From: Ruania rhizosphaerae
Lineage (GTDB): Bacteria > Actinomycetota > Actinomycetes > Actinomycetales > Beutenbergiaceae
NCBI RefSeq assembly: GCF_009805705.1
Contig: NZ_VSMB01000004.1
Location: 248,001 to 312,000, forward strand
Direction of reading: 5' to 3'
DNA: 64,000 nt
Below, piece after piece: positions 14,455-39,195 of this stretch. Positions within the stretch are counted from its first letter, which is position 1. Each line of letters starts with the position of its first letter. The position numbers were made by a program, and so were the translations under genes. The notes under the pieces were generated by a model. It saw only the letters and a program-made list of their open reading frames with translations, ran no database searches and was not told the origin of the DNA.

Positions 14455-14470
14455 GAAAGGAACCCTTCCC

Positions 14471-15968: not shown

Positions 15969-15971
15969 GCA

Positions 15972-15985
15972 TGCAACCGATTGCA
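15972..15985. promoter_or_regulatory. LacI-type operator, copy 3
   Basis: TGCAACCGATTGCA, identical to copy 1, lies immediately downstream of a TTGACA-based promoter and 36 bp before the solute-binding-protein start codon. This is the clearest repression geometry in the set. Confidence 0.87.
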
Positions 15986-16021
15986 GTTCCGACCAACACG
16001 ATCGAACCCAATGGAGGGACC

Positions 16022-17269
16022 ATGAGGCACAAGACCACAGTTGCCGCCGGTGCCGTCGCGACGAGCGCGCTACTTCTCGTCGCTGCGTGTAGCGGCAGCA
16101 CTCCCACAGACACCACAGACGTCGACCCGGAAGAGGTCTCCGGCACCGTGACGTTCTGGACCTATCCGTTCTCAACCATCGCCGAGGCATCCTGGTGGCA
16201 GCCCTACGTTGACGAGTTCAACGAGGAGTACCCGAACGTCGAGGTCGAGGTCGTGATGCAGGCCTGGCAGGGACGTGAAGAGTCTCTCGTCACGTCGATC
16301 ACCGGCAACAACGCGCCCGACGTCGTCTACTTCAACCCGGACTTCGTGCCGAAGTACGCCGACCAGGACCTGCTGCTCCCGATAGATGACCTGCGCGAGG
16401 ACTGGGACCAGTTCTACGACTCCTCGCTCGAGGCCATGACCTGGGACGGCACCCTCTACGGACAGCCCATGCTGATGCAGCTGCAGACGTCCTACTGCAA
16501 CACCGAAGTACTCGAGGAGGCGGGTGTTGCTGACTGCCCGACCACCTGGGACGAGTTCCGCGACGCCGCGCCGGCCATCCAGGAAGCCGGCTACTACGCA
16601 ACCGAGTACAACGGAGTTTCCACGCTGAACCACACCTTCTACGTCTACCTCTGGCAGGCAGGCGGTGATGTGCTGAACGAGGACATGACCGAGGCGACGT
16701 TCAACGGCCCGGAAGGCCTGCAGGCACTGGAGTTCATCCAGGAGATGGTGGACAACGAGTGGGTTCCGCAGGAACCGTTGAGCATCGCCGAGCCCTTCGA
16801 ACAGACCGATGCCGGGCAGGGGAACCTCGGATACGTGATGGGTTCGAACCTGGCGTCCACCCGACAGTTCATCGACCCTGACGTCATCGAGACCGTCCCG
16901 CCGATGAGCAACGTCGAGCAGGTTGCCTCTGGCTCCGTGGGTGCATGGTCGATCTTCAACACCACCGAGTCACCGGAAGCCGCTCAGGCCTGGGTCCGGT
17001 TCCTGGGTGAGCCGGAGTTCCTCGAGGACTTCCTGAGCGAGGCGGGGTACCTCTCACCGCGCGCTGACATCGAGGGCCTGTTCGCAGATGACCCGCAGAT
17101 CGCCGGAGGAGCGGACTATCTTGAGCATCTCCGCACTGGTGTTCAGCACCCCAACGCTCGCGAGATCATCGACATGATTCGCCCGCACATTCAGAGCGTG
17201 CTGCTCGAAGGCGCCGATCCGCAGGATGCGCTGGACGCCGCTGCGGCCGAGGTCAACGGGCTTCTCTGA
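16022..17269 (+). CDS. ABC importer solute-binding lipoprotein (sugar)
   Basis: A 415-aa extracellular solute-binding protein of the carbohydrate (CUT1) type. The signal peptide ends in the lipobox LLVAAC, giving lipidation at C23, followed by a Ser/Thr-rich linker and a typical VTFWTYPFS start of the mature domain. The many acidic and aromatic residues suit an exported sugar binder. The ATG at 16022 follows GGAGGGAC; an in-frame start at 15971 would overlap the operator and is rejected. It heads the operon with two permeases and is separated from them by a strong hairpin (17291-17322). Confidence 0.92.
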   Translation: MRHKTTVAAGAVATSALLLVAACSGSTPTDTTDVDPEEVSGTVTFWTYPFSTIAEASWWQPYVDEFNEEYPNVEVEVVMQAWQGREESLVTSITGNNAPDVVYFNPDFVPKYADQDLLLPIDDLREDWDQFYDSSLEAMTWDGTLYGQPMLMQLQTSYCNTEVLEEAGVADCPTTWDEFRDAAPAIQEAGYYATEYNGVSTLNHTFYVYLWQAGGDVLNEDMTEATFNGPEGLQALEFIQEMVDNEWVPQEPLSIAEPFEQTDAGQGNLGYVMGSNLASTRQFIDPDVIETVPPMSNVEQVASGSVGAWSIFNTTESPEAAQAWVRFLGEPEFLEDFLSEAGYLSPRADIEGLFADDPQIAGGADYLEHLRTGVQHPNAREIIDMIRPHIQSVLLEGADPQDALDAAAAEVNGLL

Positions 17270-17290
17270 CCCGGACAGATGTCTTTGTCT

Positions 17291-17322
17291 GCGTGGGGCC
17301 AGCCACTGCGCTGGCCCCACGC
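17291..17322 (+). terminator. intercistronic hairpin after the binding-protein gene
   Basis: A perfect 13-bp stem (17291-17303 with 17310-17322) and 6-nt loop lie between the binding protein and the first permease. Such hairpins in importer operons can stabilise the upstream message or attenuate the downstream one, giving more binding protein than permease. No T-run follows, so full termination is unlikely. Confidence 0.7.
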
Positions 17323-17343
17323 TTACTCAGAAAGGGATCAATC

Positions 17344-18282
17344 ATGGCAGTAGCCACGGGATCCGCACCGGTGGACCAGACGGCGCAGGATGCGCGGCAG
17401 CCACCGACCCGCAAGCGAAGGTGGTGGAGGTCAAAGAGCGCGATTGCGGCGTACATCTTCATTGCGCCGTACGTGGTGTTCTTCGTAGTCTTTCGCATAC
17501 TTCCAGCGATCTTCGGGATCGGTCTCAGTTTCGGCGAGTACAGCCTCACGGGCGCACTCACGTTCGTCGGGCTCGACCACTACGCCAGGCTCTTCGCTGA
17601 CCCCAACTTCTGGGGAGCGCTCTGGGTCACGCTGAAATATGCCGCGATCGCCATGCCAATGACAGTGGTCCTCTCACTCGCCATCGCTCAACTGTGCAAT
17701 CGGATGATGCGCGGCATGGCCTTCTACCGCTCCATCTTCTTCCTTCCCGCGGTGACGTCGCCGGTGCTCTCTGGCCTCATCTTCGTGTGGATCTTCTCCG
17801 AGTCGGGCCCGATCAATCGCCTCCTCAGCGCCGTCGGGCTCGAGCCGATCAGCTGGCTACAAGACAGTTTCTGGGTGCTCCCGGCGCTCGCCTTGGTGAG
17901 TGCGTGGATGAACTTCGGCTACAACATGCTGATCCTGCTGGCCGGCATGCTGGCGATTCCGCAGGAGTACTACGAGGCGGCAGCGATCGACGGCGCGAAC
18001 GGGTGGCAGCGCTTCTGGCGCATCACGCTCCCGTCCCTGCGGCCGGCTCTCTTCTTCGTGCTGGTGCTCGAAACGGTCAAGTCGTTCCAGACCTTCGACA
18101 CCATCTTCGTGATGACCGGCGGCGGCCCGGTGCGCGCAAGCTACACGCTCACCTTCATGCTCTACGACCAGGGGTTCGGCTACTTCGACTTCGGCTATGC
18201 CAGCGCGGTGGGTGTTGTTCTGCTGATCATCGCCCTGGTCTTCTCACTCATCCAACGCCGACTGGTCGGGAGGGACGACTGA
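17344..18282 (+). CDS. sugar ABC importer permease, MalF/UgpA-type
   Basis: The 312-aa inner-membrane subunit has about six hydrophobic helices (first at IAAYIFIAPYVVFFVVF) and the EAA loop YYEAAAIDGANGWQRFW that docks the ATPase. The start ATG follows AAAGGGA. Its stop overlaps the next permease by one base (TGATG). It forms a heterodimeric channel with the next gene product. No ATPase is encoded nearby, so a shared MsmX/MsiK-type ATPase is expected elsewhere. Confidence 0.92.
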   Translation: MAVATGSAPVDQTAQDARQPPTRKRRWWRSKSAIAAYIFIAPYVVFFVVFRILPAIFGIGLSFGEYSLTGALTFVGLDHYARLFADPNFWGALWVTLKYAAIAMPMTVVLSLAIAQLCNRMMRGMAFYRSIFFLPAVTSPVLSGLIFVWIFSESGPINRLLSAVGLEPISWLQDSFWVLPALALVSAWMNFGYNMLILLAGMLAIPQEYYEAAAIDGANGWQRFWRITLPSLRPALFFVLVLETVKSFQTFDTIFVMTGGGPVRASYTLTFMLYDQGFGYFDFGYASAVGVVLLIIALVFSLIQRRLVGRDD

Positions 18283-19175
18283 TGTCCATCACACGTGACC
18301 TATCGCCGGCTCCCGCTCCGACGCCGCCTCGCATGAGTGGTTCCATGCCGCTGTCCCGGCGCCTGACCCGGGCCCGCCGCCTCGCGCCGATGCATGTGCT
18401 GCTCATCGCTGTGGCGGTGGTGACAGCATTTCCCTTCTACGCCATGGTGATGATTGCCTTCCAACCGGGACAGGCCATCGTTCTGCCAGATTCGATGTTC
18501 CCGGATAGGCTGTCCGTCGCGGCCTTCGAGGACGCTCTCAACAGCCAGAACATTCCGCAGTGGGCGTTGAACTCAGCGATCTACTCCGTCGTGTCAGTGG
18601 TCATCGTCCTACTGCTGGCGTCAATGGCCGGATACGCCTTCGCGAAGAAGCGTTTCGCGGGACGTGAGGTGATCTTCTGGGTTTTCCTCGCGATGCTGAT
18701 GATCCCCTACCACCTCACGATCATCCCGCAGTATCTCATCGTCGGCGGGCTCAACGGCCTGGACACCATGTGGGGAATGATTGCCGCAACGATCGCGAAT
18801 GCTCAAGCGATGTTCCTGATGCGGCAGTTCATCTACAGCATCCCGGACGAGATGCTCGATGCGGCCAAGATCGACGGTGCCGGCGAGTTCCGTATCTACT
18901 GGTCGATCGTGTTGCCGCAGACCAAGCCGATCATGGCGACGCTGGGTACGTTCGTCTTCCTCTGGCACTGGAACGACTTCCTGTGGCCGATGATCTCGCA
19001 GCAGTCCCCGGAGAACTACGTGCTGACCGTGGGGCTGAATACACTGCAAGAGCAGCAGGTGCCGCTCGCGACAATGATGGCTGCGGCAGTGGTCAGCTTC
19101 ATCCCGACTCTGATCATCTTCATCGTCCTGCAGCGGTACTTCGTCCGTGGCGTCATGATGTCGGGGATGAAGTAG
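18282..19175 (+). CDS. sugar ABC importer permease, MalG/UgpE-type
   Basis: A 297-aa permease with an N-terminal cytoplasmic tail of about 35 residues rich in Pro and Ser, then six transmembrane segments. The EAA-type loop is DEMLDAAKIDGAGEFRIYW, followed by the conserved WNDFLWPMI. Translationally coupled to the first permease. It is the last gene of the importer operon and is followed by a bidirectional terminator hairpin. Substrate is inferred only from context: an oligosaccharide released from the regulon's glycan. Confidence 0.92.
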   Translation: MSITRDLSPAPAPTPPRMSGSMPLSRRLTRARRLAPMHVLLIAVAVVTAFPFYAMVMIAFQPGQAIVLPDSMFPDRLSVAAFEDALNSQNIPQWALNSAIYSVVSVVIVLLLASMAGYAFAKKRFAGREVIFWVFLAMLMIPYHLTIIPQYLIVGGLNGLDTMWGMIAATIANAQAMFLMRQFIYSIPDEMLDAAKIDGAGEFRIYWSIVLPQTKPIMATLGTFVFLWHWNDFLWPMISQQSPENYVLTVGLNTLQEQQVPLATMMAAAVVSFIPTLIIFIVLQRYFVRGVMMSGMK

Positions 19176-19284: not shown

Positions 19285-20610
19285 CTACTGGGGAGTCCAC
19301 ACATCTGCGCCGTAGAGCCCCGCTCCGTCGAGCCCGTCCAACCTCACCTGACCGTCGTTCACGTTGGCCAGCTGTGGGAGCACGCTACGGAGCCCGTCAT
19401 TGTCTGCGGGAGCGTACTGCCTGCTGTTGTACTCGAGCTGCGGCACACTCACCCGCAAGGCGCTGGCAATCCGCGCGGAGTGCACATACGCACGTCCGGT
19501 GGCGGTGAGATCCTGAACGGCGACGAACAATCCGAGGCGCCGCGCAACAGCGGCCGCGATCACCGCAGGTGTCTGTCCTTTACCCGCCTTGATGACCACC
19601 CCGGACCATCCCTCTCCGCGAATTCGCGGCAGTCTTGCGAGGGATGTGAATCCCTCGTCCATGATGGTGGGCACTCGTTCAGAGAGCCGCCACATCGTAC
19701 GCGGGTCGGCAGCCGCTGAGCGGGGGATCGGCTGCTCCAGGTACTGCACCGCAGCGGCGGCGCCCGGATCGGAAGCCGAGAGTTCGTCCAGCATGGTCAC
19801 CGCGAGGCTCGCGTCCGTATACCCCTCGTTCGGGTCGACGGCCAGGTGCGGCACGACACCCTGTGACCTCGCGGTGCGGTAGACATCGGCGATCCGCCGA
19901 GCATCGACCACAGGATCGGCTCCGGCCACTTTGACCTTGAGACGGTCGACACCCTCCTGCGCGATCCAGTCCGCAAGCGCAGTCGACCCGTCTCCTGCCG
20001 CCTCGGTGGTCAGCGGATCGGAGATGCCGACGACGTGCTGCACAGGCAACGACTGCCGCGGCGAAGGTTCGACCCCGTCGCCGGGGTAGCGGCCGGGCAG
20101 ACCGTAGGCGCGTAGATCATCTGCCAGATGATCTGCCGTGTACATCCCGAACACGTTCTGACCCGCTGCGTTGCCCCACGCATCATGTAGCGCATTGTCG
20201 ACCGCGCCCAGCGCCAGGGCTGCGCCCAGCTTCGGGACTCGTTTCTGCATAGGCGCCCGCAAGGCTGCCCGGAGGAGGGCCTCGGTGCCGGCGGCCAGAT
20301 GTCCCCACATCGCGATCGGATCAGCAGGCTCGAGCTTTGTAGCCCGCTGCGCATAGCCGTGCACCAGCTCGCGCAGTACCGCATCCCGTTCTGCGACGGA
20401 GAGGTCACTTCCGGGCCATGCCCATGGCACCGACAGCACACTCTCACCGTGACCCGTTGCGCGTTCGCCTGAGCGATTCACGACCGCCACATCGACTTCA
20501 GCAACAGTGAAGTGCGTGATCGATCCCCCGCTGATCGTCAGTGGCGACGCAAGCTGGACGTCACGGTAGGCGATCGCAGTGTCGAGTACCCGGATGTCGG
20601 TCTTGGACAT
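19285..20610 (-). CDS. enolase-superfamily enzyme (mandelate racemase/muconate lactonising type)
   Basis: The 441-aa protein carries the enolase-superfamily active site: K225-x-K227 (LKVKVAG), metal ligands near D259 (AVDPNE), E292 (YLEQPIPR) and D318/E319 (IMDEG), and a C-terminal lysine in VVIKAGKGQT (K341 or K344). Two lysines on opposite faces are typical of racemases, epimerases and cycloisomerases; a sugar-acid dehydratase with a C-terminal His is less likely. It is last in a minus-strand run with three secreted propeller proteins (74-bp gap), so it probably acts on a product of the same glycan. Confidence 0.83.
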   Translation of the reverse strand: MSKTDIRVLDTAIAYRDVQLASPLTISGGSITHFTVAEVDVAVVNRSGERATGHGESVLSVPWAWPGSDLSVAERDAVLRELVHGYAQRATKLEPADPIAMWGHLAAGTEALLRAALRAPMQKRVPKLGAALALGAVDNALHDAWGNAAGQNVFGMYTADHLADDLRAYGLPGRYPGDGVEPSPRQSLPVQHVVGISDPLTTEAAGDGSTALADWIAQEGVDRLKVKVAGADPVVDARRIADVYRTARSQGVVPHLAVDPNEGYTDASLAVTMLDELSASDPGAAAAVQYLEQPIPRSAAADPRTMWRLSERVPTIMDEGFTSLARLPRIRGEGWSGVVIKAGKGQTPAVIAAAVARRLGLFVAVQDLTATGRAYVHSARIASALRVSVPQLEYNSRQYAPADNDGLRSVLPQLANVNDGQVRLDGLDGAGLYGADVWTPQ

Positions 20611-20684: not shown

Positions 20685-23201
20685 CTAGGGAACGTATCGG
20701 TAGATGTTGGTCTCGTCGGCGAAGTAGATGTTCCCGGCCGTATCGATCGTGGAGTGGAAGGCGCCATCGGTCATGAGCGTCACGAACTCGTCAGTCTCGG
20801 GGTCGAAGCGGAAGAGTCTTCCACCGGAGTCCCCGTAGAACTGCCCATCCGGATGCAGATAGAGCTCGCTGAGCCGCCCCCAGTTGCTGCTCACCCGGGC
20901 TGGGGTCGAGACGGTGCGGGCTACCTCACCGCGTTCGACGTCGTATTCGAAGAAGACCCCGTTGTCGGCAAAGCCCCACAGATCTCCGTCGTGATCGAAG
21001 GCGAGAGCGTGTATCACTTCTGCTCCCGGGACCACCACGCTGCTGGAGACCAGTCGGTCTCGGCGGGTGTCCCACACGAACAGCTCCGCCTCGTCTTGGG
21101 TGGGCTCCGAGGACAGACCACCGTGAATGCTGGTACCGCCGTAGACCAGGCCGTCACGGTAGGCCAGTTCGGTGATGCTCTGGTCCTCGACGATGTTGCG
21201 GTGCACCTGGTACCGGCCGCTGTTCGGTTCGAACAAGGTCAGGGCGCCCCCGAGTTCGCCGTAGTTCGGGATCGTGGCCGCCGCCACCCGGGCTCCGGTG
21301 GAGACCAGGGAGACGGGCCTGTCCTGCCCGTACTGCTCCCGGCCGAGGCCGAGCACATGCGCCGGATTCTGCCCCCACTCCCAGTCCCGATTGCCGAGAG
21401 CGACGTGGAAGTCGGCGCCTGGGTATGTCCCGACGACGGTGCGGTTGTGGTGCGCCGTGATGCTGTCAGCCTGCTTGGGCCCGGTCAGCTGTTCGAGCTC
21501 ACCAGTGGCCGGATCTAGCCGGGCCATCACCCCGGCGCTCAGATACGCACCGAAGTAGATGTTCCCGTCGCCACCGGTACCGACCGAGTGGACAGTCGCA
21601 GGAGCACCCACGATCGGTGGCTCGATGACATCCCCGGTGCCAGTGGCAAGGTTGTATCGCCAGATCGTCCCGTCTGCGCGATAGCCGATCAGGCTCTCGC
21701 CCGGGAAAGCCTCGGTGCCGAGCTCGACCAGGGACACGGCGTTGGTACCGTCCAACTCCTCGGCAAGGTCGCTCTCCGCCCAGCCGATGTCCAGGCTCTG
21801 CCTGGAGTCAGGGTCGAACGCCCGTACCGTGCCATCACCCACGTAGTAGGAGAGTCCGTCCGAGGAAGCCGCCGTCCACGGACCGACAGTTCCCCCGATA
21901 CCGCCGATCCACTGTTCGGTCGCCAGGTCGTAGATCGCCGTGTTCTCCGCGCCTCCGGGCGAGAAGCTGACGAGCACGAGATCACCCAGCTGCTGCACCC
22001 GCGTGATGAAGTCCGCAGCCTGGGCGACTTCCTCAGGCAGCGGAATCTCCGCCAAGGCCGCCGTCTCCGGGTCCAGCACCATGAGGTGCGGATTGGTGCC
22101 CGTGCCCACCCAGAGGTTGCCCTGGATCATGCCGAAGCCCCACGCATACGAACCATCGTCCACGACGCTTCCATAGTCGTGGATCGCCCCGGTGGCCAGG
22201 TCGTAGGAGAACACCTTGGCGTTGGGATAGGTCGTGCCGAAGAGCATCCCCTCAGCGATGACGAGGCTGCGGAGCATGCGCTCGCCCGCGATCCTGCTCG
22301 CGAGCCGTTCCATCTCAGCGGATGCGGGGTCATAGCGCCACAGCGAACCGTCGTTGGGTCCCCGCACGCTCAAGTAGACGCTGTCGTCATCATCGACCAC
22401 CACTGAGGCAGCGATGGAGTAGGCGTCCATGTCATGACTGTCCAGCAGTTCGCCGGTGCGCAGATCGACGACGTTGAAACTCACCGGTTCCCCGTCGGAG
22501 AAGACATATCCCACCGGGGTGCCATCGCTGAGGACGTCGGTTTCGGCCAGGCGGACGTTCGGGCTGTGGAACGCAGTGCCCAGGTCCGTGACCTCGAGTG
22601 GGGCGTGGGTGTGGGTGAGGCTGACTTCATCGACGTGGAAGGTCGAGATCCGGGCGATGTTCGAGTAGAGATAGATTGATGCAGTAGCGGCTTGCTCCGG
22701 TGCGCTGGCATCCAGGCGCAGTTGAGTCCACTCCCCAGCCGGTTCATCGGTGTAGTGCGCGTACTCCACATCGAGTTGGCGACCGTCCGCGTCGTAAAAG
22801 TAGACGTACAGAGTCGGTGAGCCACGTTCGATCAGCGCGCGCAGGGACAACTGGTATGAATGCCCGGCGCGTATCGGCATCCGGTCGCTCATCAGCCCAT
22901 ATGACCTGTCATCCTCCGGGTCGTCCAACCGAAGGCTGTGCTGACCCGAGAACACGGGATCGGTCACGACAGTGGAGCCTCCAGCTGTGCCGCCCCGCTG
23001 GTCCCAGCCCGGGATCTGCCCTTCCACGATCGGCTCCTCGAAGCCGCCGTTGATCGGGCCGACTCGCGAGTTGTCTGGCGAGTCGGCCCGGGCAGTACCT
23101 TGCCCTGCCACGCTCAACGCAAGCAACGCCAGGCAGGCGAGTGCCGCCAGCAACGAGCGAATGAACGGCCGGGCGAGTACAGCAGATCCTTGGGATGTCA
23201 T
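20685..23201 (-). CDS. secreted CBM + beta-propeller protein (propeller protein C)
   Basis: An 838-aa exported protein. A signal peptide (hydrophobic stretch LLAALACLALLALSVAG) ends near TARADS. Residues ~45-190 form a CBM4/9-like jelly roll starting NGGFEEPIVEGQIPGWD. The rest is a beta-propeller of repeated strands such as YVGDGTVRAFDPDS and LWRYDPAS. The block from GQDRPVSLVS through YGELGGALTLF to VYGGTSIHGG is shared with the two upstream propeller proteins. The start at 23201 has an AAGAGG site 7 nt upstream; an ATG six codons earlier lacks one. Unlike its paralogs it has no C-terminal solenoid. It could bind or cleave a polysaccharide. Confidence 0.8.
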   Translation of the reverse strand: MTSQGSAVLARPFIRSLLAALACLALLALSVAGQGTARADSPDNSRVGPINGGFEEPIVEGQIPGWDQRGGTAGGSTVVTDPVFSGQHSLRLDDPEDDRSYGLMSDRMPIRAGHSYQLSLRALIERGSPTLYVYFYDADGRQLDVEYAHYTDEPAGEWTQLRLDASAPEQAATASIYLYSNIARISTFHVDEVSLTHTHAPLEVTDLGTAFHSPNVRLAETDVLSDGTPVGYVFSDGEPVSFNVVDLRTGELLDSHDMDAYSIAASVVVDDDDSVYLSVRGPNDGSLWRYDPASAEMERLASRIAGERMLRSLVIAEGMLFGTTYPNAKVFSYDLATGAIHDYGSVVDDGSYAWGFGMIQGNLWVGTGTNPHLMVLDPETAALAEIPLPEEVAQAADFITRVQQLGDLVLVSFSPGGAENTAIYDLATEQWIGGIGGTVGPWTAASSDGLSYYVGDGTVRAFDPDSRQSLDIGWAESDLAEELDGTNAVSLVELGTEAFPGESLIGYRADGTIWRYNLATGTGDVIEPPIVGAPATVHSVGTGGDGNIYFGAYLSAGVMARLDPATGELEQLTGPKQADSITAHHNRTVVGTYPGADFHVALGNRDWEWGQNPAHVLGLGREQYGQDRPVSLVSTGARVAAATIPNYGELGGALTLFEPNSGRYQVHRNIVEDQSITELAYRDGLVYGGTSIHGGLSSEPTQDEAELFVWDTRRDRLVSSSVVVPGAEVIHALAFDHDGDLWGFADNGVFFEYDVERGEVARTVSTPARVSSNWGRLSELYLHPDGQFYGDSGGRLFRFDPETDEFVTLMTDGAFHSTIDTAGNIYFADETNIYRYVP

Positions 23202-23336
23202 GAGTGACCTCTTCACCATTTGATCGATCGGACCATCGGGGCGGCGGAGTCAACCGTGAGGCTGGCTCCTCCTTGCTAGCGGGTGTATTCGCCGTAGTGG
23301 CTCAACCCAACGGGGTCGATGAAGCAGCGCGGCAGA

Positions 23337-26300
23337 TCATCCACCCGCCACGACCAGCCCGGCACACTGACCATCGGCCGAGCCGGTGATCGTGTTGGCA
23401 CTGGCCTCATCGTCCGGAACGGAGGCGTTGTCGGAGCACTGCACCGAGCCATGTACGTCGTTGCCCGCGAACACGAACTCATCCGTCGTGCCAGTCACCG
23501 ACACGGCACCGCGGATCTGACTGTCGCGCACCTGCACACTCACAGCATCCACTGCAGTCAGGCCGCCACGGATCTCACTCAACCCCTCGACGACCAGCAC
23601 ACCACCGGCCTCGACCGATACGCCACCGTTCACACTCGCAGCCTCGACGCATAGGACCTCCCCATCGGCGACAGTGAGACCACCGTTGACCCGGTCGGTG
23701 AGTGTCTCGCTGCAGGTCACTGGCTCCTGTGAGCCGGCCGCGTTGTACCGGAACAGGTTGGCACCCGAACTCAGGTAGACGTCGCCGTCCTCGTCCACGG
23801 TGCTCCACTGGAGACCGTTCGCGATCCGCGTTGTCTCACCAGTCTCGGGATCGTGAACGCTGAAGCGGCTGCCCGCCGTGACGTAGATTCTCCCGTCAGC
23901 ATCTGACATCGAGACCGTGCCGTACGCCCAGAAGGTCCTGCCGTCTGGGTAGCGGCCACCCACGGTGCCCATGATCTCCGACTCACCCGTAGCGGGGTCG
24001 TAGGCGAACAGTGCCTCCTCGGCGACGCCCCACACCACGCCGTCGGGGTCGACCATCAATCCGGTGATGCCCTCGCGCTCACTCCCGGCCGGGTCGATCG
24101 TAGTGACGACGCTCCGGGTCTCCGGATCGAAGACGATCAGCTTGCCCGCCGTGTTGCCACTCGGGTCCGATCCGAGCCCGCCATCCACAGTGCTGCCGAG
24201 GTACACCAGACCGTCGACGGGATTGTACGCGACAGAGACAATGTTCTCGTCCTGGCCAATCTCGGAAGTCAGCCATTCGTGCTCACCGGTCGCCGCGTCC
24301 CAGATCGCCACACCGCCCTGGGTCTCACCATAGGTGGCCACCGACCCCATGTAGAACTCGTCACGGTCAGGGCCATATGCCATCCCGAACGGTCGGTCCT
24401 GCCCAAAGTCGACCCCAGTAAATAGCGTCGGCACGGTGCTGGGATCTGCGGGTTCATAGGTGGCCGGGTCGAGCCGGTCGAACCTGGCTTCTCCATAGGC
24501 ACCCAAGTACAGTTGCCCGTCCCGAATCGCAGCGGATTCGAACTGACCACGCTGCATCGTCGGCCCATGGGTGTCGCCATCCTTGTCAACTTGCGACAGG
24601 CCCACCATGTATCCCGATGCCCACACAGTGTTGTCCGGGCCCGCGAAGAGCTTCTGAATCAGCGTCGGCTGAGCAAATTCAACCGGGTTGGCCGACAGGA
24701 GCTCCTCTGCCTCAAGATCGGCGACGAAGACTCCAGACGCCGACGTCCCATACAGCAGCGACGTACCACTCGATGAATCCACCACACCGTTGGAAAGGTA
24801 CCCACCGATCGTTATGTCGGTGGACGTGAAGGAGTTCGTGGCCGTGTCATAGATGAGCAGTCCACCACCGCCGGTCGAGAAGATGGCGGTACCCCTTTCG
24901 GCGCCCTCAATACTGTGGTGACCGAAGAAGAATCGGGTCTGCTCGGGATCCCAGTGGATGACATTTCCCGCGAGATCAAGCACGAGCATCCGCAAACGCG
25001 CCTGGGCGATGATCCGGTCGCCGACGATGTCCATCCTGCTGATGGTGTTGGCCCCCTCATCACTCAGTCCAGGGACGAGCGAGTCATCGGCTATCAGGGT
25101 CTGCTCGCCGCGACCGCGCTCCTCGATCTTCCAGATTTGCGGCTCTTGCACACCGGTGCCGACGTAGACCGTCTCGGTCTCGGCGTGGTAAGCGATTGAA
25201 TGGATGTAGTCGATACCGGCACCGATCTGCCGAAGGAACTCAACCTCGTCAGTCTCAGGATCAATCAGATAGAGCCGGCCCTCCGGGTAGGAGCCGACAT
25301 ACATCGACCCGTCAGGACCAGGCGACATTCCGAAGGTGGAGTCCTTATGACCACTGAATCGGCCCAGATCGGCACACTCACCAGTCAGTGGATCATATCT
25401 CCAGAGTTTGGAGTCATGGTACGTACCCCAGTAGACGCGGCCGTCGTCCGCGATATTCAAGTTTCTCGCGTTCTCGGCGTCGCCGAGCTCGCACGTTCGA
25501 AGTTGTGCGCCTGTCTCGATGTCGGTGACCGCGAATGCCGCTGGGTATCCACTCGAAGGATTCCCCTTGAAAACCTGATACGAGACGTGCCTACCGTCCT
25601 CGATTCCCTGGGCCGCCTGACTGGGAATCTGACTCGTCACCGGGGTCCCCAGGTACTCGAGATTCTCATCCTGGGCGAGAATCGTCTCGACGGGAGACAG
25701 TTCGGGCTCCTCAGGCTCCTCGCTCGCCAGCCCGAACCACACATCATCGATGAACGTGTTGAGCGTCGCCCCGGAGACAGCATAGAAGAGCAGTCGTGCC
25801 GAGACCGTGCCCTCAGGGGCTTCGAAACGAACTGATGTCCGCTGCCAGGTATCCGTCGTCGAACGGACCATCTCGTACGGCTGGCTGATCACGTTGCCCT
25901 CGGCATCGTCGAAGTAGAACGTGACGCTCAGCGCGCCGCCCTCGCGGTACTGGTCGAAACTGAGTTCATATGTCTCACCCGCGTCCGCCGGCACCGGGTC
26001 TGAAACCAGCCCACCGGTACGCATCCCGTCCTCCCGGAGGATGTGCAGACTCCGCACGCCGTCGCTCGCGCGCTCGTCGGTGAACGAAACAAGTTCGTTC
26101 CTTCCCCACAGGGGCGCCCAGCCTGGCGCGTTGGTAGCGTCCTCGCCTTCTTCAAAGCTCGTGTTCGTGAGCCGATTGGGCTCCTCAGCGGGTGTCTCGC
26201 CCGCCGCATGTGCGCTGACTCCGGCTGCGGCGAGCATCACTCCCGCCAGCAGGACGCCAGCTGCTCGCGTCAGCAGGGTTCTGGACTGGGTCATGGTCAT
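23337..26300 (-). CDS. secreted CBM + beta-propeller + solenoid protein (propeller protein B)
   Basis: A 987-aa exported protein. After a signal peptide (cleavage near VSAHA), residues ~42-190 are a CBM4/9-like jelly roll (NTSFEEGEDATNAPGW to FIDDVWFG), ~205-850 a beta-propeller (blades such as YVGSYPEGRLYLIDP), and 863-987 a short beta-solenoid with repeats like VNGGLTVADG, VNGGVSVEAG, IRGGLTAVDA and IRGAVSVTG, bracketed by cysteines. The propeller contains GQDRPFGMAYG and YGETQGGVAIWD, matching the two paralogs. Two ATGs lie 6 bp apart behind GAAGGAG. No catalytic family can be assigned; cell-wall or glycan binding, or a new lyase or hydrolase, are possible. Confidence 0.8.
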   Translation of the reverse strand: MTMTQSRTLLTRAAGVLLAGVMLAAAGVSAHAAGETPAEEPNRLTNTSFEEGEDATNAPGWAPLWGRNELVSFTDERASDGVRSLHILREDGMRTGGLVSDPVPADAGETYELSFDQYREGGALSVTFYFDDAEGNVISQPYEMVRSTTDTWQRTSVRFEAPEGTVSARLLFYAVSGATLNTFIDDVWFGLASEEPEEPELSPVETILAQDENLEYLGTPVTSQIPSQAAQGIEDGRHVSYQVFKGNPSSGYPAAFAVTDIETGAQLRTCELGDAENARNLNIADDGRVYWGTYHDSKLWRYDPLTGECADLGRFSGHKDSTFGMSPGPDGSMYVGSYPEGRLYLIDPETDEVEFLRQIGAGIDYIHSIAYHAETETVYVGTGVQEPQIWKIEERGRGEQTLIADDSLVPGLSDEGANTISRMDIVGDRIIAQARLRMLVLDLAGNVIHWDPEQTRFFFGHHSIEGAERGTAIFSTGGGGLLIYDTATNSFTSTDITIGGYLSNGVVDSSSGTSLLYGTSASGVFVADLEAEELLSANPVEFAQPTLIQKLFAGPDNTVWASGYMVGLSQVDKDGDTHGPTMQRGQFESAAIRDGQLYLGAYGEARFDRLDPATYEPADPSTVPTLFTGVDFGQDRPFGMAYGPDRDEFYMGSVATYGETQGGVAIWDAATGEHEWLTSEIGQDENIVSVAYNPVDGLVYLGSTVDGGLGSDPSGNTAGKLIVFDPETRSVVTTIDPAGSEREGITGLMVDPDGVVWGVAEEALFAYDPATGESEIMGTVGGRYPDGRTFWAYGTVSMSDADGRIYVTAGSRFSVHDPETGETTRIANGLQWSTVDEDGDVYLSSGANLFRYNAAGSQEPVTCSETLTDRVNGGLTVADGEVLCVEAASVNGGVSVEAGGVLVVEGLSEIRGGLTAVDAVSVQVRDSQIRGAVSVTGTTDEFVFAGNDVHGSVQCSDNASVPDDEASANTITGSADGQCAGLVVAGG

Positions 26301-26420
26301 CGTCTCCTTCGGGGCATGATCTCGGTGTCGTGCTCTGATTCATCAAGCGTTCGTGGGCGAATCAATGCGGCTGGATGCTCGGAGCTTCGTTCAGCGAAGC
26401 TGCGGATCTCTGGGGCGGAT

Positions 26421-29321
26421 TCACCCATCTCCCAACCCGCCAGGGACGCCGAAGTAGACGTTGTCGACGAAGGACTCGCCGACGATCCCGCTGGAGCTGT
26501 AGATCATCACTCGCGCCGCGACGGCGCCTTCTGGCACCTCAAAGCGAAGGTCGGTCCGTTCCCAGGTGTCGAGAGTGGGCTCGACGAGCTCGTACGACTG
26601 ATCGACCACGTCGCCGTCGGCGTCGTCAAAGAAGATCGTCGGAGCCAGTCGGCCGTCGATCCGGTACTGATCGAAGCTGAACTCATAGGTGGCACCTGCC
26701 TCCACGGGAACTGAGTCGGATACCAACCCTCCGCCGCCTGAGGTCGAGGTGTCCCGGACGTGCAGGCTCCGAATGCCATCGCTGGAGCGTTCGTCCGTCA
26801 ACGAGACGTAATGCGCTGATGCGGGCCAACGCAGCGACCAGCCGGGGATATCGGTCACGTCCGCGCCTTCTTCGAAGCCGGCATTGACGAGAAGATTCGG
26901 CGAATCGTCCTCGACCGGTACCAGGACTGCGCACTGGCCGCCGGCAGACCCGGTGACAGTGTTCAGGCTCCCCTCGTGGTGAGGTTGGGAGGAGTTCTCG
27001 GAGCACTCGAGAGATCCACGCACCGTGTTGCCTGAGAGAACGGTCTCGTCCTGAGTTCCGGTCACCGTGACTGCACCGCGAATCTCCGAGTCCCGGATCT
27101 GCACGCTCCGCGCATCGGTGGTGCTCACTCCCCCACGGATTGAGGAATCATCGACCAGCAACGCTCCGCCTACTCCCACCGTGATCCCGCCGTTCACACG
27201 CGCACCCTCAAGGCAGGCCACGTCACCTGCCGCAACCGTGAGTCCGCCATTGACCGTGTCCGTGAGTGTCTGGCTGCACACCAACTCGGGCTCCACCCAG
27301 CGATAGAGGTTCGCCTGGCGGGCGTAGTAGTAGGAACCGTTGCGGTCAATGGCCAGGCCGTACGCATCGTCGAACAGAACAGTCATCTCCAGCGTCTCAG
27401 GGTCGATCTCGAAGAGCTGGTTGTTGGAGGAACCGACGAGTTTTCCCTCGTGCCAGAACAACTCGCGACCCGTCGCATAGATCGAGCTGTCATCGAAGTC
27501 GAAGTAGCGCTCGGTCAACACCACCTCACGGGTGGTCGGGTCGAACTTGAACAGCTCGTTGGCCGTGAAGCCCCAGAGGTTGCCGTCATTGTCGAAGGTG
27601 AGCGCCGAGACGTTTTCGGCACCGGGGACAGGGACACCGGAATACACAACCTCTGACGTCGCCGGATCGAAGACGAAGAGGTGTCCTTCTGTGGTGCTCG
27701 GCTCCACGCCGATGCCACCCCAGATGCCGGTGCCGCCGTATATCAGCCCGCCCCGGTAGGCCAGTGAGAGCACGGTCTGGTCGTTCACCACGTTGCGGAA
27801 GACGTCGACATCACCAGATTCGGGGTCGAAGAGAGACAGTGCGCCCCCCAACGTGCCGTACGTCGGCATCGTGCCGACCGCGACGACGTCACCGGCCGAT
27901 GCGAGCGCGAGTGGCCGGTCCTGTTCCTCCCCGAGCCGGATATCGGTTCTCGGGTTCGAGCCCCACGACCAGCTCTGGGTCGTGTCGTAGGCATGAAGCC
28001 TCGCCCGCGTGTACATCCCGGCGACAAGGTAGTCGCCGTGCGCGACGATCTCCTCGGGCTGCCCGGTGCGCGTCGGGTACACGATGCTCTCCCCCGTGTC
28101 AGCATCTGTGCGCGCGAGACCTGGAGGGCTCGCGTAGCCGCCGGTCCAGATGTCACCTTGCGGGCCCACACCAAGCGAACGGATCAGGTATCGCGACGGC
28201 GCCACGTCCGGTTCAAAGGTTGACGTGGCCCCTGTCTCGGGGTTCCAGGCGTAGAACGTCCCCTCATCGGTCGCGGTGACGAGGGTCTCACCGGGGAATC
28301 CCTCCGCCGAGAGTTCCAGCAGACCGAAGCTGCGCTTCTGCCCCCGGTGGCCGAACGAGATCTCACGCGTCTCACCTGTGTCGATATCAAAGGCGAGGCC
28401 GTCGGAGAGCTGCATCGGGATCAGCGCTTCGCGGCGCTCCACACCCGAGTCGATCGTCGTCACCACGGGTGAGAGGTCCTGACCAGCTGCCCGCGGGATC
28501 TCCTCGATCCAGGCCTCCTGTGCGAGCGAGTACACGTGCAACACCGCGTCGCTCATCCGGGCGAATACGTAGTCCCCACGCACGCTGAGGTCCTGGACGA
28601 ACTGCTCATCCTGGGCCGCAGTGGGCAATTCGATCTCGCTCATCGCGCCGGTCTCGATGTCGATCTGCACCACACCGACAGTCGTCCCCGTGCCCGCGTA
28701 GATGTACTCATCGTCGACGTCGATGCTTCGCACGTACATTGCCCCGTCGAGCACGGAGCCGTAGTCACGCCACTCATCCGCCGACGGCTCATAGGAGATC
28801 ACCTTTCCGTCGCGGTAGGTGCCGAAGTAGATGCGGCCGTCGCTTCCTGCCGCAGCGCCGAAGAAGTGGGTCTGTCCGAACGGTTCGACGGCGATTACGT
28901 TGAGCTCGTTGTTCTCGACGTCGTACTGAAAGACCTCACCAGTCTTGGTGGCGCCGAAGTAGACGTCGCCGTCCGGTGCCGTGACGAACTCCCATATCTG
29001 CACGCCGAAGCCGTCGATGTCGTACTCCAGCAGGCGCTCGCCTGTCTCGATATCGACCGCGCTGAACGCCGATGGTGACCCCGTGGAGACGAACAGTCCG
29101 ATGTTGCGGCCGTCGGGATCGGTCGTATAGCCAACCGAAGCGGAGCCGTAGCCGGTCATCGTGGGGCCGAGGTCTTCCTCGACACGGCTGGTCTCCTGTG
29201 CGATCCCGGATTCGTTCGTGGGCGGCGTCGCGACAGCCGCCACCGGCATCAGCATCGTTGCTGCCAGCCCGACCAGCGCTGCCGTGCTCACGGCGCGGCG
29301 TGGATTCGTGGAGTGTCCCAT
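26421..29321 (-). CDS. secreted beta-propeller + solenoid + C-terminal CBM protein (propeller protein A)
   Basis: The 966-aa protein is the first of the propeller operon. Signal peptide ends near AVATPP. Residues ~50-675 form a beta-propeller, 682-800 the same Cys-bracketed beta-solenoid as in protein B, and ~808-966 a CBM4/9-like jelly roll (NAGFEEGADVTDIPGW to FVDNVYFG). Thus the CBM is at the opposite end from proteins B and C. The shared core motif appears as EEQDRPLALAS, TYGTLGGALSLF and IYGGTGIWGG. The ATG at 29321 follows AAGGAG by 6 nt; an open frame extending to 29576 crosses the operator and is rejected. The operator at 29375 lies 54 bp upstream. Confidence 0.82.
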   Translation of the reverse strand: MGHSTNPRRAVSTAALVGLAATMLMPVAAVATPPTNESGIAQETSRVEEDLGPTMTGYGSASVGYTTDPDGRNIGLFVSTGSPSAFSAVDIETGERLLEYDIDGFGVQIWEFVTAPDGDVYFGATKTGEVFQYDVENNELNVIAVEPFGQTHFFGAAAGSDGRIYFGTYRDGKVISYEPSADEWRDYGSVLDGAMYVRSIDVDDEYIYAGTGTTVGVVQIDIETGAMSEIELPTAAQDEQFVQDLSVRGDYVFARMSDAVLHVYSLAQEAWIEEIPRAAGQDLSPVVTTIDSGVERREALIPMQLSDGLAFDIDTGETREISFGHRGQKRSFGLLELSAEGFPGETLVTATDEGTFYAWNPETGATSTFEPDVAPSRYLIRSLGVGPQGDIWTGGYASPPGLARTDADTGESIVYPTRTGQPEEIVAHGDYLVAGMYTRARLHAYDTTQSWSWGSNPRTDIRLGEEQDRPLALASAGDVVAVGTMPTYGTLGGALSLFDPESGDVDVFRNVVNDQTVLSLAYRGGLIYGGTGIWGGIGVEPSTTEGHLFVFDPATSEVVYSGVPVPGAENVSALTFDNDGNLWGFTANELFKFDPTTREVVLTERYFDFDDSSIYATGRELFWHEGKLVGSSNNQLFEIDPETLEMTVLFDDAYGLAIDRNGSYYYARQANLYRWVEPELVCSQTLTDTVNGGLTVAAGDVACLEGARVNGGITVGVGGALLVDDSSIRGGVSTTDARSVQIRDSEIRGAVTVTGTQDETVLSGNTVRGSLECSENSSQPHHEGSLNTVTGSAGGQCAVLVPVEDDSPNLLVNAGFEEGADVTDIPGWSLRWPASAHYVSLTDERSSDGIRSLHVRDTSTSGGGGLVSDSVPVEAGATYEFSFDQYRIDGRLAPTIFFDDADGDVVDQSYELVEPTLDTWERTDLRFEVPEGAVAARVMIYSSSGIVGESFVDNVYFGVPGGLGDG

Positions 29322-29374: not shown

Positions 29375-29388
29375 TGCAATCGGTTGCA
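29375..29388. promoter_or_regulatory. LacI-type operator, copy 4
   Basis: TGCAATCGGTTGCA lies between the propeller operon (start 29321, minus) and the DUF4127-hydrolase-LacI operon (start 29536, plus). It could repress both, making the LacI gene autoregulated. Confidence 0.85.
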
Positions 29389-29535: not shown

Positions 29536-31014
29536 ATGCGCATCGCCCTCCTCCCACCCGACGAGCGTCCGAACACGGCCGGCTACGCCGAGTGGATCGG
29601 CCGGTGCTGCGGAGTCGACGTTCTCTTGCCTCCGCGCCACCTGATGCCGCGCTTTCGTGAAGGCGCGAATACGGCCGGGCTTGCCGTCTGGCTCCGTGAG
29701 GTCGACCAGGACGTCGATGCCTTCGTCCTCTCGCTCGACCTCCTGGTGCACGGCGGACTCATCCCGTCCCGGAACACGCCGGACGGAATCCTCGATGCAC
29801 TCCCGCGGCTGGAGGTGCTCCGGGGACTCACCTCCCCGATCACGGCCTACCAGGTGGTCACCCGCCTGCCCCACTACGACAACAACACGCGCAGCCGGCA
29901 AGAGCCCGAGTACTGGGCGACACATGGTCGACGTTTGTTCGAGCTGTCCCAGGCCTGGGACAACATCGAACACGGCGAAGCCAACGCCGACCAGGTGAGT
30001 GCTGCCCGGGAGGCCGTGCCAACCGACGCGGTGGCAGATCAGGTTCAGCGGCGCCTGCGCAACCACACCATCAACCTCACAGCCCTGTCCCTGCTCGCCG
30101 ACGGCACAGTGTCTACGCTCGCGATCACGTCCGACGACACCGCGCCCCGGGGACTTCCCGCATCGGACCGCCGCGCCCTGGACCGATGGAACGACCGCCT
30201 CGGCACGCGCGCCCTGTTCTACCCCGGGGCCGACGAGGTGCCGAGCGTGCTGACGGCACGGGTCGCGGCCGAAGCAAAGGCGGTGACGCCACGGATCTGC
30301 GTGCGGTGCCCGGAACCGGGTGGTCTCGACCGTACGGCACCGTATGAGGACCGCCCGCTCGCCGACGGCATCGGCAACCAGATTCGCGCGCTCGGAGCTG
30401 CCCGTGTGGACGATCCAGCCGATGCGGATGTCGTGCTCGTTGTCCATCCACCATCCACGACGCCCGGGGACTGGACCGGCGAGGTGCCAGAACCGAGCAC
30501 GGCAGCAGAGCGTGAGGAGCTCGTCGCCGAGGTCGGGGCCCTGCTCTCCGAGGGTCGCCGCGTCGCGCTCGCCGACGTGCGCTATGCGAACGGTTCGGAC
30601 CCGCTGCTGGTCGATGCCCTAGACGCCGCGAATCTGTTTCCGCGCCTGGTCTCCTACGGCGGGTGGAACACGGCCGGCAACACCCTGGGGACCGCGCTCG
30701 CCGCCGCAGTCAGCGCGATCATCGATGACTCCGACGACGCATCCCGTGAGCGCGAGCAGTTCCTGGCGAACAAGATCATCAAGGACGGCCACTATCTGCC
30801 GGTGCTGCGCCCACGACTGCAGCACGAATTCATGCAGCGGGGGCTGACGGATCCGCCGCTGGAGGAGATCCCCGAGTTGGAGCGGCGCGTCGAGGACGAA
30901 CTCAACGACTGGGCATCTGGCATCGACGCACTCGACGGGTGGCGGGTACGCGACGTGCGCTGGCCCTGGAACTACTTGTTCACCGTGGACTTCGACCTGG
31001 AACGGGTCCGGTGA
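29536..31014 (+). CDS. DUF4127 family protein
   Basis: A 492-aa cytoplasmic protein matching DUF4127 by its N-terminal LLPPDERPNT, the block SLDLLVHGGLIPSR near residue 75, and LVSYGGWNTAGNTLGTA near residue 375. I know no established function for this family. The start has AAGGAG 4 nt upstream. It begins a three-gene operon with an alpha/beta hydrolase (4-bp overlap) and the LacI regulator, and is divergent from the secreted propeller operon with operator 29375-29388 between. This context ties DUF4127 to sugar catabolism in this organism. Confidence 0.85.
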   Translation: MRIALLPPDERPNTAGYAEWIGRCCGVDVLLPPRHLMPRFREGANTAGLAVWLREVDQDVDAFVLSLDLLVHGGLIPSRNTPDGILDALPRLEVLRGLTSPITAYQVVTRLPHYDNNTRSRQEPEYWATHGRRLFELSQAWDNIEHGEANADQVSAAREAVPTDAVADQVQRRLRNHTINLTALSLLADGTVSTLAITSDDTAPRGLPASDRRALDRWNDRLGTRALFYPGADEVPSVLTARVAAEAKAVTPRICVRCPEPGGLDRTAPYEDRPLADGIGNQIRALGAARVDDPADADVVLVVHPPSTTPGDWTGEVPEPSTAAEREELVAEVGALLSEGRRVALADVRYANGSDPLLVDALDAANLFPRLVSYGGWNTAGNTLGTALAAAVSAIIDDSDDASREREQFLANKIIKDGHYLPVLRPRLQHEFMQRGLTDPPLEEIPELERRVEDELNDWASGIDALDGWRVRDVRWPWNYLFTVDFDLERVR

Positions 31015-31937
31015 GCACCTCCGGACACGAGACTGGTCACGCCGCCGGTCCCACCGACCGGATCGACCGAACCAGCTGGATCGACCTGATCGGTGCACGC
31101 CGCGCCGTCGACGGATCGTGGCGGCTCGGCGAAACGGAGCCCGGCCCCCACGGCAGCGTGCAGCGCCCGCTGCACCTGCGAAGTTTCGGAACAGACGTGA
31201 CGGCGGTGCTGCTCACGCCGGATGCCACCTCACCTTCCGCCGTCGTGGTGGTGCCGTTCTACGACACGGATACCCTGCTGGGACGGCCGAGCCCGCTCTA
31301 TCCGGCGGGCCGCCCGGGGCCGGGCCGGGACTATGCGCTGCGCCTGGCCGCGCGCGGCCTCGGTGTGCTCGCTGTGCCGTGGTGGGCGGAGTTGCTCGCC
31401 GAGCGCGAGGGCCCCACCGAGTTATCCGCGCGATATGGTCCACCGGCCGCGGCGCACGCCGCGCAGCATCCGGGCGTCACCGGCCTGGGCCGCAGCGTCG
31501 CCGATCTGCTGCTCGCCATCGATGCACTCACCGAAACCCCTGGGGTCGACGCCGATCGAATCGGCACCTTCGGCCACTCCCTCGGCGGCAAGCACGCGCT
31601 GTTCCTCGCCGCCCTCGATCCACGGATTCGCGCCGCCGTGGTGCACGAACCAGGTGTGGGCTTCGCGCACTCGAACTGGCAGGACCCGTGGTATCTGGGC
31701 GATCAGGTGCCACGACACCGCGACCTGGACGAACTCACCGGACTCATCTCCCCTCGCCCCATCCTGTATGCCGGCGGTGGGGCGTCGGACGGGTCGCACA
31801 ACGCCGACATCGCCCAGCGTGCGCAGCAACACTGGCCCGATTCGGGATTCGATGTGCTGATGCACAACACGGGCCACCCGCTTCCCGACCACGTGTTCGC
31901 CGCCTGCGCTTCCTGGCTCACCGACCATCTGAACTAA
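31011..31937 (+). CDS. alpha/beta hydrolase (dienelactone hydrolase/acetyl-xylan-esterase-like)
   Basis: The 308-aa protein has the nucleophile elbow GHSLGG with S190 and a likely catalytic histidine H289 (HNTGHPLPDH); an acid residue probably lies near residue 260 (GGASDGSHN). No signal peptide is seen, so it acts inside the cell, probably as an esterase on an imported, acylated sugar. The GTG at 31011 overlaps the DUF4127 stop by 4 bp; the open frame before it is inside DUF4127. The LacI gene follows after 16 bp. Confidence 0.83.
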   Translation: MSTSGHETGHAAGPTDRIDRTSWIDLIGARRAVDGSWRLGETEPGPHGSVQRPLHLRSFGTDVTAVLLTPDATSPSAVVVVPFYDTDTLLGRPSPLYPAGRPGPGRDYALRLAARGLGVLAVPWWAELLAEREGPTELSARYGPPAAAHAAQHPGVTGLGRSVADLLLAIDALTETPGVDADRIGTFGHSLGGKHALFLAALDPRIRAAVVHEPGVGFAHSNWQDPWYLGDQVPRHRDLDELTGLISPRPILYAGGGASDGSHNADIAQRAQQHWPDSGFDVLMHNTGHPLPDHVFAACASWLTDHLN

Positions 31938-31953: not shown

Positions 31954-32967
31954 GTGCCGATGAACCGACGACGGACAGGGGGCGCACGCGTGAAGGCGAC
32001 CATCTACTCGATCGCGCGAGAGCTGGACATCTCGGCATCGACCGTTTCGCGTGCCTTCTCCCGGCCGGACATGGTGAACGCGAAGGTCCGCGAGCGCATC
32101 CTCGCTACCGCGCAAGCTCAGGGATACGAGCTCAACCGCGCCGCCCGCGGGCTCGCCACCGGACGCACCGGACTGATCGGCCTAGTGGTGCTGGACATCA
32201 CCAACCCGTTCTTCCCGCCCCTGGTCCGCGCGGTCGAGCGCGCGGCGAGCGAGTCGGATACGTCGGTGATGCTGCTCGACGCCGAGTCCGGCGGCCAGAA
32301 GGCCGCCGACCAGCTCAAAAGGCTCAGTGCCCAGGTCGACGGCCTCATCGTCGCCTCACCGCGCCTGGCCACCAAGGACCTGCAGGCAGCCGTCGGATCG
32401 ACGCCGACGGTGCTGGTCAACCGGTCAGTTCGCGGCATCCCGTCGGTGACCTGTGACAACTCCGCCGCTCTGCGGGAAGCGGGTGACCACCTGGTCGAGC
32501 TCGGCCACCGCAGAATCCTGCTGCTGCGCGGACCCGCAGGATCATGGGCGGCAAGCCAACGTACGAACGCCGTCCGCTCCTGGGCGCAGCACACCTCAGC
32601 CGATGTCGAGCTCGTCGAGCTGGGACCCGTCGAAGCCACCTACGAAGCCGGCTGGCACGCAGCGGAGGCCATCGCTGCGAGCGGGGCGACGGCGATCATG
32701 GCCTTCGACGACTACCTCGCCTGCGGTGTGGTCGGCGGGCTCGACGAGCAGGGCCTGTCCGTCCCGGACGATCGCAGCATCATCGGCTGCGACGACGTGC
32801 TCCTCGCGCGCACGCTGACACCGCAGCTGAGCACCGTGACAGCTCCGTTCGAAGAACTGGGCGCCCGCGCGGTCACCATGCTCAGCGAGGTGAGCGCCGG
32901 TGGTGCGCCCGGGAATCAGAAGTTGTCCGGGGTGTACGCGCCACGGGGGACGACGGGGAAGGTGTGA
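31954..32967 (+). CDS. LacI family transcriptional regulator (candidate master repressor of the 4-41 kb regulon)
   Basis: A 337-aa LacI/GalR regulator. The N-terminal helix-turn-helix reads TIYSIARELDISASTVSRAF, followed by the hinge and a periplasmic-binding-protein-like effector domain (GLVVLDITNPFF, LELGHRRILLL, RSIIGCDDVLLA). The GTG at 31954 has GGGGAG 4 nt upstream; an ATG at 31960 is also possible. It is third in the operon that starts behind operator copy 4, which implies autoregulation. The six TGCAA-N4-TTGCA palindromes in the window are the natural candidates for its binding site. The other LacI protein (56631) sits in a locus with a different motif. Confidence 0.92.
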   Translation: MPMNRRRTGGARVKATIYSIARELDISASTVSRAFSRPDMVNAKVRERILATAQAQGYELNRAARGLATGRTGLIGLVVLDITNPFFPPLVRAVERAASESDTSVMLLDAESGGQKAADQLKRLSAQVDGLIVASPRLATKDLQAAVGSTPTVLVNRSVRGIPSVTCDNSAALREAGDHLVELGHRRILLLRGPAGSWAASQRTNAVRSWAQHTSADVELVELGPVEATYEAGWHAAEAIAASGATAIMAFDDYLACGVVGGLDEQGLSVPDDRSIIGCDDVLLARTLTPQLSTVTAPFEELGARAVTMLSEVSAGGAPGNQKLSGVYAPRGTTGKV

Positions 32968-33028: not shown

Positions 33029-33262
33029 ATGGCCGCAACGATCACATTCCGTCCCGATGATGAGGCTCGGCTCGCACTCGATGAGTTGACCTCCGATGGA
33101 ACTCCCGTGTCGCGGGCGGTGCGCGATGCCTTGGTCGAGGCGGCTGCCAAGCATGCGAAGTCCCGGCTACAGGCCGAAGCTGAGGCTCTGGCTGCGGATC
33201 CCGATGACCGTGCTGAGGCCGCGCAGGTTTTGCGCGACATGGAGTCTCTGCGTGCGTGGTGA
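33029..33262 (+). CDS. antitoxin of a MazEF-like pair (ribbon-helix-helix type)
   Basis: The 77-aa protein starts ATITFRPDDEARLALDEL, like ribbon-helix-helix antitoxins, then has a charged helical C-terminal half that would wrap the toxin. It overlaps the toxin gene by 11 bp. Antitoxins of this type normally neutralise the toxin and repress their own operon. Confidence 0.82.
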   Translation: MAATITFRPDDEARLALDELTSDGTPVSRAVRDALVEAAAKHAKSRLQAEAEALAADPDDRAEAAQVLRDMESLRAW

Positions 33263-36878: not shown

Positions 36879-36912
36879 TCGTCTGGTTCCACCCAGGTTC
36901 TCACACCCTGCC

Positions 36913-36926
36913 TGCAATCGGTTGCA
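36913..36926. promoter_or_regulatory. LacI-type operator, copy 5
   Basis: TGCAATCGGTTGCA lies between the oxidoreductase at 36878 (minus) and the epimerase gene (plus). TTGCAT (36922-36927) with TACCGT (36945-36950), 17 bp apart, would be a plus-strand promoter overlapped by the site. Confidence 0.84.
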
Positions 36927-39146: not shown

Positions 39147-39195
39147 CCCTTCGTCCTCAACCTCGCAGGACGACACCAGCGCACGACCGGACCGA

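Follow-up and report, generated by a model that had tools for sequence, protein, structure and literature searches.

Three consecutive genes on the minus strand of a Ruania rhizosphaerae contig encode secreted paralogues, here called A, B and C, of a well-delimited, uncharacterised family of tandem-propeller proteins that is found in sugar regulons and involves no new principle. We regard A-C as secreted glycan-active proteins that are most likely enzymes, a lyase relying on Tyr, Arg and Gln being plausible; more specifically, and with a confidence that falls a little short of even, we propose that they are the secreted, glycan-contacting arm of a LacI regulon and that their attack on the polymer is enzymatic, most simply that of a lyase. 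The substrate is probably an acidic heteropolysaccharide containing aminosugars, to judge from the genes of the regulon, the neighbours of related propeller genes, and the sulfatases beside a fourth paralogue. Within the window (the whole stretch of 64,000 nucleotides that was analysed) the three genes are laid out as follows:

26421-29321, minus strand: protein A (966 residues), with signal peptide, predicted tandem-propeller core 47-682, beta-solenoid 683-800, and CBM_4_9 domain 801-966
23337-26300, minus strand: protein B (987 residues), with signal peptide, CBM_4_9-like domain 36-198, predicted tandem-propeller core 205-868, and beta-solenoid 864-982
20685-23219, minus strand: protein C (844 residues), with signal peptide, CBM_4_9 domain 45-208, and predicted tandem-propeller core 205-844

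The gaps between the genes are about 120 bases long, and A starts with an ATG at 29321 that has AAGGAG immediately 5′ to it. A Sec-type signal peptide is present on each of A, B, and C (by sequence and by a heuristic scan); among 19 genes of the regulon region screened in the same way, only A-C and the importer lipoprotein have one, which makes A-C the candidates for attack on, or capture of, the polymer, and the screen revealed no further secreted depolymerase. The initial annotation had called A-C secreted paralogues with permuted domains, and rightly so, coordinates included: i) the cores are 38% identical between A and C (Z 130), 33% between B and C, and 30% between A and B; ii) the domain order is core-solenoid-CBM in A, CBM-core-solenoid in B, and CBM-core in C; iii) the CBM_4_9 domain (Pfam PF02018, curated cut-off 25.9 bits) lies at the C end of A (residues 809-942, E 5.6e-8, 33.7 bits) and at the N end of C (residues 57-186, E 1.2e-5, 26.2 bits) and B (residues 44-172, E 6.8e-5, 23.7 bits), the match in B falling slightly under the cut-off and the other two above it; and iv) A and B share 54% identity in their CBMs (Z 82), despite these standing at opposite ends of the two proteins, and 64% in their solenoids (Z 39), so the permutation is real. 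By sequence comparison the similarities of core, CBM, and solenoid all lie far beyond chance. Internal duplication of the two halves of the core is clear for B alone (Z 15), with Z about 3 for A, C, and the fourth paralogue.

That the core is a propeller agrees with the fold of the predicted model, but it is not a single one: the strand list of a confident model of C (residues 205-844, modelled from five sequences; mean pLDDT 87.7, pTM 0.87) gives fourteen blades over about 640 residues, which rules out a single propeller. The cores of A-C are thus predicted to be tandem propellers of fourteen blades in two seven-bladed units, the last blade of the C core apparently being completed by an N-terminal strand. 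Behind the core of A the predicted model has a beta-solenoid with rungs of about 19 residues, mostly at pLDDT above 90; the CBM in the same model is of low confidence.

Fold and sequence searches placed the core near propellers of a generic kind. The top Foldseek matches of the C core were generic tandem WD proteins at TM 0.31-0.41, and an assignment from them was dropped; the C-terminal half of the core matched ordinary propellers of seven blades (with TM to target reaching 0.74), just as generic as the matches of the whole core, and its best 50 fold matches included no polysaccharide lyase. A likeness to PL11, PL22, PL24, or PL25, which the initial annotation had proposed to look for, was not borne out, these families being absent from the best 50 matches, which were generic WD40 or tandem propellers and BT4663. 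Pfam recognised chiefly DUF6923, DUF5074, and PQQ_2 repeats (in 19, 7, and 12 of 24 members, respectively), generic or uncharacterised repeat models that each cover part of the core. A PDB sequence search returned designed or generic propellers, and no solved enzyme matching the core specifically was found by PDB sequence or profile search or by fold search. The earlier statement that no known catalytic family is recognisable stands: Pfam, NCBIfam, and the PDB sequence and fold searches assigned none. No description of a tandem-propeller lyase appeared among the literature titles and abstracts retrieved, and nothing was found on DUF6923.

The putative operator TGCAAYCGRTTGCA is present in five perfect copies in the whole 4.4-Mb genome, all at window positions 4687-36926 and hence within about 32 kb; allowing up to two mismatches, 6 sites were found against 0.42 expected. 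The operator copy 4 that had been placed ahead of the propeller genes is real, being the fourth of the five perfect copies. The sites and the regulator gene are:

4687-4700: operator copy 1, perfect, probably directly upstream of the true start of an AGE-type epimerase gene
12395-12408: operator copy 2, perfect, between divergent Gfo/Idh/MocA genes
15972-15985: operator copy 3, perfect, upstream of the ABC solute-binding lipoprotein gene
29375-29388: operator copy 4, TGCAATCGGTTGCA, perfect, between the divergent A and DUF4127 genes
36913-36926: operator copy 5, perfect, near the start of a NAD-dependent epimerase/dehydratase-like gene
39227-39240: imperfect operator with 1 mismatch, near a glucosamine-6-phosphate isomerase-family gene (frame 38941-40044)
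31954-32967, plus strand: LacI-family regulator (Pfam/NCBIfam)

The longest frame of the AGE-type epimerase runs from 3361 to 5391, with the epimerase domain from residue 280; that of the solute-binding lipoprotein starts at 15971, with the signal peptide from codon 18, about 50 bases on. In most related Ruania loci TGCAAYCGRTTGCA, exact or with 1 mismatch, is found near the starts of propeller genes. We conclude that the TGCAAYCGRTTGCA set is a strictly local LacI-type regulon whose operator is reused at related loci across the genus, and that the LacI-family protein is likely to be what reads the operators. A PemK/MazF-like toxin of a type II toxin-antitoxin system (33096-33566) is encoded between the LacI gene and operator 5.

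The other neighbours of A-C are concerned largely with sugar uptake and catabolism:

19285-20610, minus strand: enolase-superfamily (MR_MLE_C) enzyme, 74 bases downstream of C
29536-31014, plus strand: DUF4127 protein, divergent from A across operator 4
30939-31937, plus strand: alpha/beta hydrolase with a weak match to glucuronyl esterase (GCE_fung)
15971-19175, plus strand: ABC sugar importer, comprising the lipoprotein solute-binding protein and two permeases (the second by inspection)
36820-39146, plus strand: NAD-epimerase-like and DHDPS-family genes, followed by the glucosamine-6-phosphate-isomerase-family gene
14336-15919, plus strand: DUF1961 protein, with a 3-keto-disaccharide hydrolase match slightly below cut-off

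Co-regulation of A-C with the enolase-superfamily enzyme, as initially suggested, is upheld by the position of that gene close behind C on the same strand, probably in the same operon. The DUF1961 gene adjoins several Gfo/Idh/MocA genes, and their sequences together suggest a pathway of the 3-keto-glycoside type. At several Ruania loci the DUF4127 gene stands beside a propeller gene and points away from it, and the genome has two more copies elsewhere; we found no literature on DUF4127, and a PDB search gave no relatives of the enolase, NAD-epimerase-like, or DUF4127 proteins. The same company recurs elsewhere. Propeller loci in Ruania share genes for an enolase-superfamily enzyme, Gfo/Idh/MocA proteins, an ABC importer, and a LacI regulator. 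The propeller relatives of Mesobacillus, Paenibacillus, and Streptomyces are accompanied by a DHDPS gene and by one for a NAD-epimerase or a NAD(P)-oxidoreductase, mostly together with Gfo/Idh/MocA and sugar ABC genes. The DHDPS genes beside the Paenibacillus and Streptomyces propellers, and the oxidoreductase gene in Paenibacillus, find their best matches in the window at 36820-39146, with 53-55% identity.

In an alignment of 50 sequences (residues numbered as in protein C), no columns are strictly invariant other than those of Tyr599, Arg634, and two glycines, and the invariance of Tyr599 and Arg634 spans family members at 22-30% identity. The codons of the conserved polar residues in C are:

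21318-21320, minus strand: Arg634 (the R of QDRP), invariant in all 49 sequences with a letter there
21423-21425, minus strand: Tyr599, likewise invariant (49/49 with a letter there)
21471-21473, minus strand: Gln583, kept as Gln by 39/39 members of the main (catabolic) clade, with Glu instead in the outgroup (10/10)
22146-22148, minus strand: Tyr358, in 40/40 of the main (catabolic) clade and not invariant in the outgroup

The motif blocks on which the initial annotation had fixed (QDRP, YGxxxGG, and (I/V)Y(G/L)G(T/S)) do follow in the same order in A, B, and C, but they hold family-wide only in part, as Tyr599, Arg634, and Gln/Glu583; YGxxxGG fails as a universal signature, its Tyr653 being kept in just 28 of 39 main-clade members. 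On the predicted fold, Gln583 and Arg634 would lie where the inner strand begins in each of two consecutive blades of the second propeller, Tyr599 in the B-C loop between them on the same face, and Tyr358 at the equivalent position in the first propeller. Of the binding or catalytic site suggested for the shared motif, a shared conserved site on the propeller core is retained, but we advance its catalytic role as a hypothesis. No His column is conserved at 70% or more in the 50-sequence alignment, nor is any plausible pair of catalytic acids; the near-invariant Asp residues are 717 and 760 only, both at a repeat-type YD(P) position that recurs at 297, 340, 383, 569, and 806, and they look structural for that reason.

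The family is multi-copy in Ruania, with relatives in Streptomyces and Bacillota. Matches occur in 12 of 24 genomes of the taxonomic family (up to ten in one genome, some genes yielding more than one), distant full-length members are present elsewhere in the phylum, and a plasmid collection contains members from Mesobacillus, Paenibacillus, Streptomyces, and Nonomuraea. A tree of 49 cores, on which the architectures core, core-sol, cbm-core, cbm-core-sol, core-sol-cbm, cbm-cbm-core, and core-cbm are found, needs at least 11 architecture changes; A groups there with a cbm-core-sol protein from another species, so that the CBM of A has either switched ends or been replaced. The fourth paralogue, elsewhere in the same genome (G000:C22), has VSRP for QDRP and PG for YG, and adjoins two sulfatases with SGSH_C domains. 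Tyr599 and Arg634 persist in the outgroup, part of which is without an obvious signal peptide. Individual relatives include two distant ones that have no obvious signal peptide (L077 7980-9833 and L075 7947-9782), the former encoded between clpX and a valyl-tRNA synthetase gene; a 2011-residue protein with two complete tandem-propeller cores and more repeat segments (L046 9916-15951); and a propeller gene of the related genome G015 that is split across two overlapping frames (L036 548-3026), which looks like a disrupted copy or a mistake in assembly. Next to propeller genes, L037 4874-8644 encodes a protein of 1256 residues that probably bears an export signal; from a weak match of its C end to the lambda-carrageenase propeller it is possibly an additional depolymerase, and its N-terminal part is without assignment.

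Comparison with characterised systems yields resemblance rather than membership. PL24 and PL25 ulvan lyases and the PL42/GH145 rhamnose-glucuronate enzymes combine an Arg neutraliser with an active-site Tyr (PMC8377490, PMC11395424); the sites of PL24 and PL42 use His/Arg (PMC8377490), that of the PL25 propeller is Tyr/His/Arg, and that of the PL28 jelly roll is Tyr/Gln/Arg (PMC11395424). Like A-C these PL24/PL25/PL42/GH145 enzymes have a propeller fold, but theirs is a single 7-blade propeller with a catalytic His, whereas the core has 14 blades and no conserved His. The invariant Arg634 and Tyr599 may be counterparts of the Arg and Tyr, and by this analogy the Tyr/Arg/Gln residues would suit a lyase. 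For PL24, PL25, and PL42 there was no Pfam family match at E up to 10, no PDB chain by profile, and none among the best 50 fold matches of the core; PL11 rhamnogalacturonan lyases were likewise absent from the Pfam matches and from the best 50 fold matches. The PL22 oligogalacturonate lyase (PDB 3pe7), also a propeller, gave a marginal profile match (E 0.012) over some 95 residues, and unrelated kelch and WD proteins on the same list score as well or better. The best natural bacterial match of the core, by sequence profile and by fold, is to the extracellular domains of BT4663/BT4673 (PDB 4a2l, 3ott), which are also tandem propellers in a carbohydrate context; they belong to membrane sensors, unlike A-C, and the match is weak (TM about 0.35, 12-14% identity).

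An enzyme, and a lyase in particular, is favoured by the signal peptides, CBM_4_9 domains, operators, conserved company, sulfatases, Tyr599/Arg634, and the chemistry of PL25 and PL28; the generic-propeller fold matches, and the persistence of Tyr599/Arg634 in an outgroup partly without an obvious signal peptide, count against this explanation. A lyase is further disfavoured by the lack of the conserved His that the PL24, PL25, and PL42 propeller lyases use, and by GH88/GH105, a family that usually processes unsaturated uronyl products: it occurs in 3 of 8 Ruania genomes, never in the regulon of A-C, and is missing from the propeller-rich G015 and G017, the former being one of the two Ruania genomes with most propeller matches. 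KduI was uninformative as a sign of uronate use, being present in 8/8 genomes, including one without propellers; its Pfam model also covers inositol enzymes. Of the new lyase or hydrolase family first envisaged, the carbohydrate context has stood and a lyase is plausible, as are a hydrolase and a non-catalytic binder, but no PL fold was matched. That A-C are founders of a new polysaccharide-lyase family, defined by a tandem 14-blade propeller with a His-free Tyr/Arg/Gln site and by cores recombined with CBM and beta-solenoid, strikes us as possible though doubtful.

It is rather unlikely, in our estimate, that A-C are non-catalytic, with CBM, solenoid, and propeller binding the polymer in the medium or on the surface of the cell and passing it to other depolymerases or to the importer, and with the conserved site as an acidic-sugar binding pocket. 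The double propeller of the non-enzymatic heparin/heparan sulphate sensor BT4663 is among the best natural matches, no His or catalytic carboxylate pair is conserved, and the presence of several paralogues in one regulon would be in keeping with binders; yet such strict Tyr/Arg/Gln conservation at 22-30% identity would be unusual for binders, and the regulon has offered no other secreted depolymerase. Glycoside hydrolases or other non-lyase glycan enzymes of a new tandem-propeller family we consider distinctly unlikely. CBM_4_9 often accompanies hydrolases, GH74 is an example of a hydrolase family with tandem propellers, the cytoplasmic Gfo/Idh/MocA and DUF1961 genes resemble an oxidative pathway that needs no unsaturated products, and GH88/GH105 is not linked; against this, the sole near-invariant Asp residues look structural, Pfam gave no glycoside-hydrolase family match besides the CBM at E up to 10, and of GH74 features there was no BNR match, the conserved Asp pair being of the repeat type. 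A structural or regulatory propeller, such as a signalling or anchoring scaffold whose place in a sugar locus is incidental, would account for the distant-clade members without an obvious signal peptide and for the one beside clpX, but is highly improbable given a sugar-catabolic context and secretion that are consistent across Ruania, Streptomyces, and Bacillota.

Returning to secreted enzymes as the preferred reading, the catalysis and mechanism that we infer would be as follows. The LacI-controlled regulon would import and catabolise an acidic polysaccharide, probably one with aminosugars, or oligomers of it; A-C would attack the polymer outside the cell, most simply by metal-independent beta-elimination, with CBM_4_9 and beta-solenoid as swappable targeting modules; Tyr599, Arg634, and Gln583, together with Tyr358 of the other propeller, would mark a functional site on the loop face, where Arg and Gln may neutralise the uronate carboxylate and a Tyr may act as base/acid; and the ABC importer would bring the products into the cell for processing by the cytoplasmic enzymes.

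We wish to stress that this is an uncharacterised family in at least two bacterial phyla, amplified and domain-shuffled within a dedicated sugar regulon that holds further proteins without assigned function (DUF4127, DUF1961). The family is a good hunting ground for a new carbohydrate-active enzyme, and the invariant residues make the question of its function directly testable with two point mutants.
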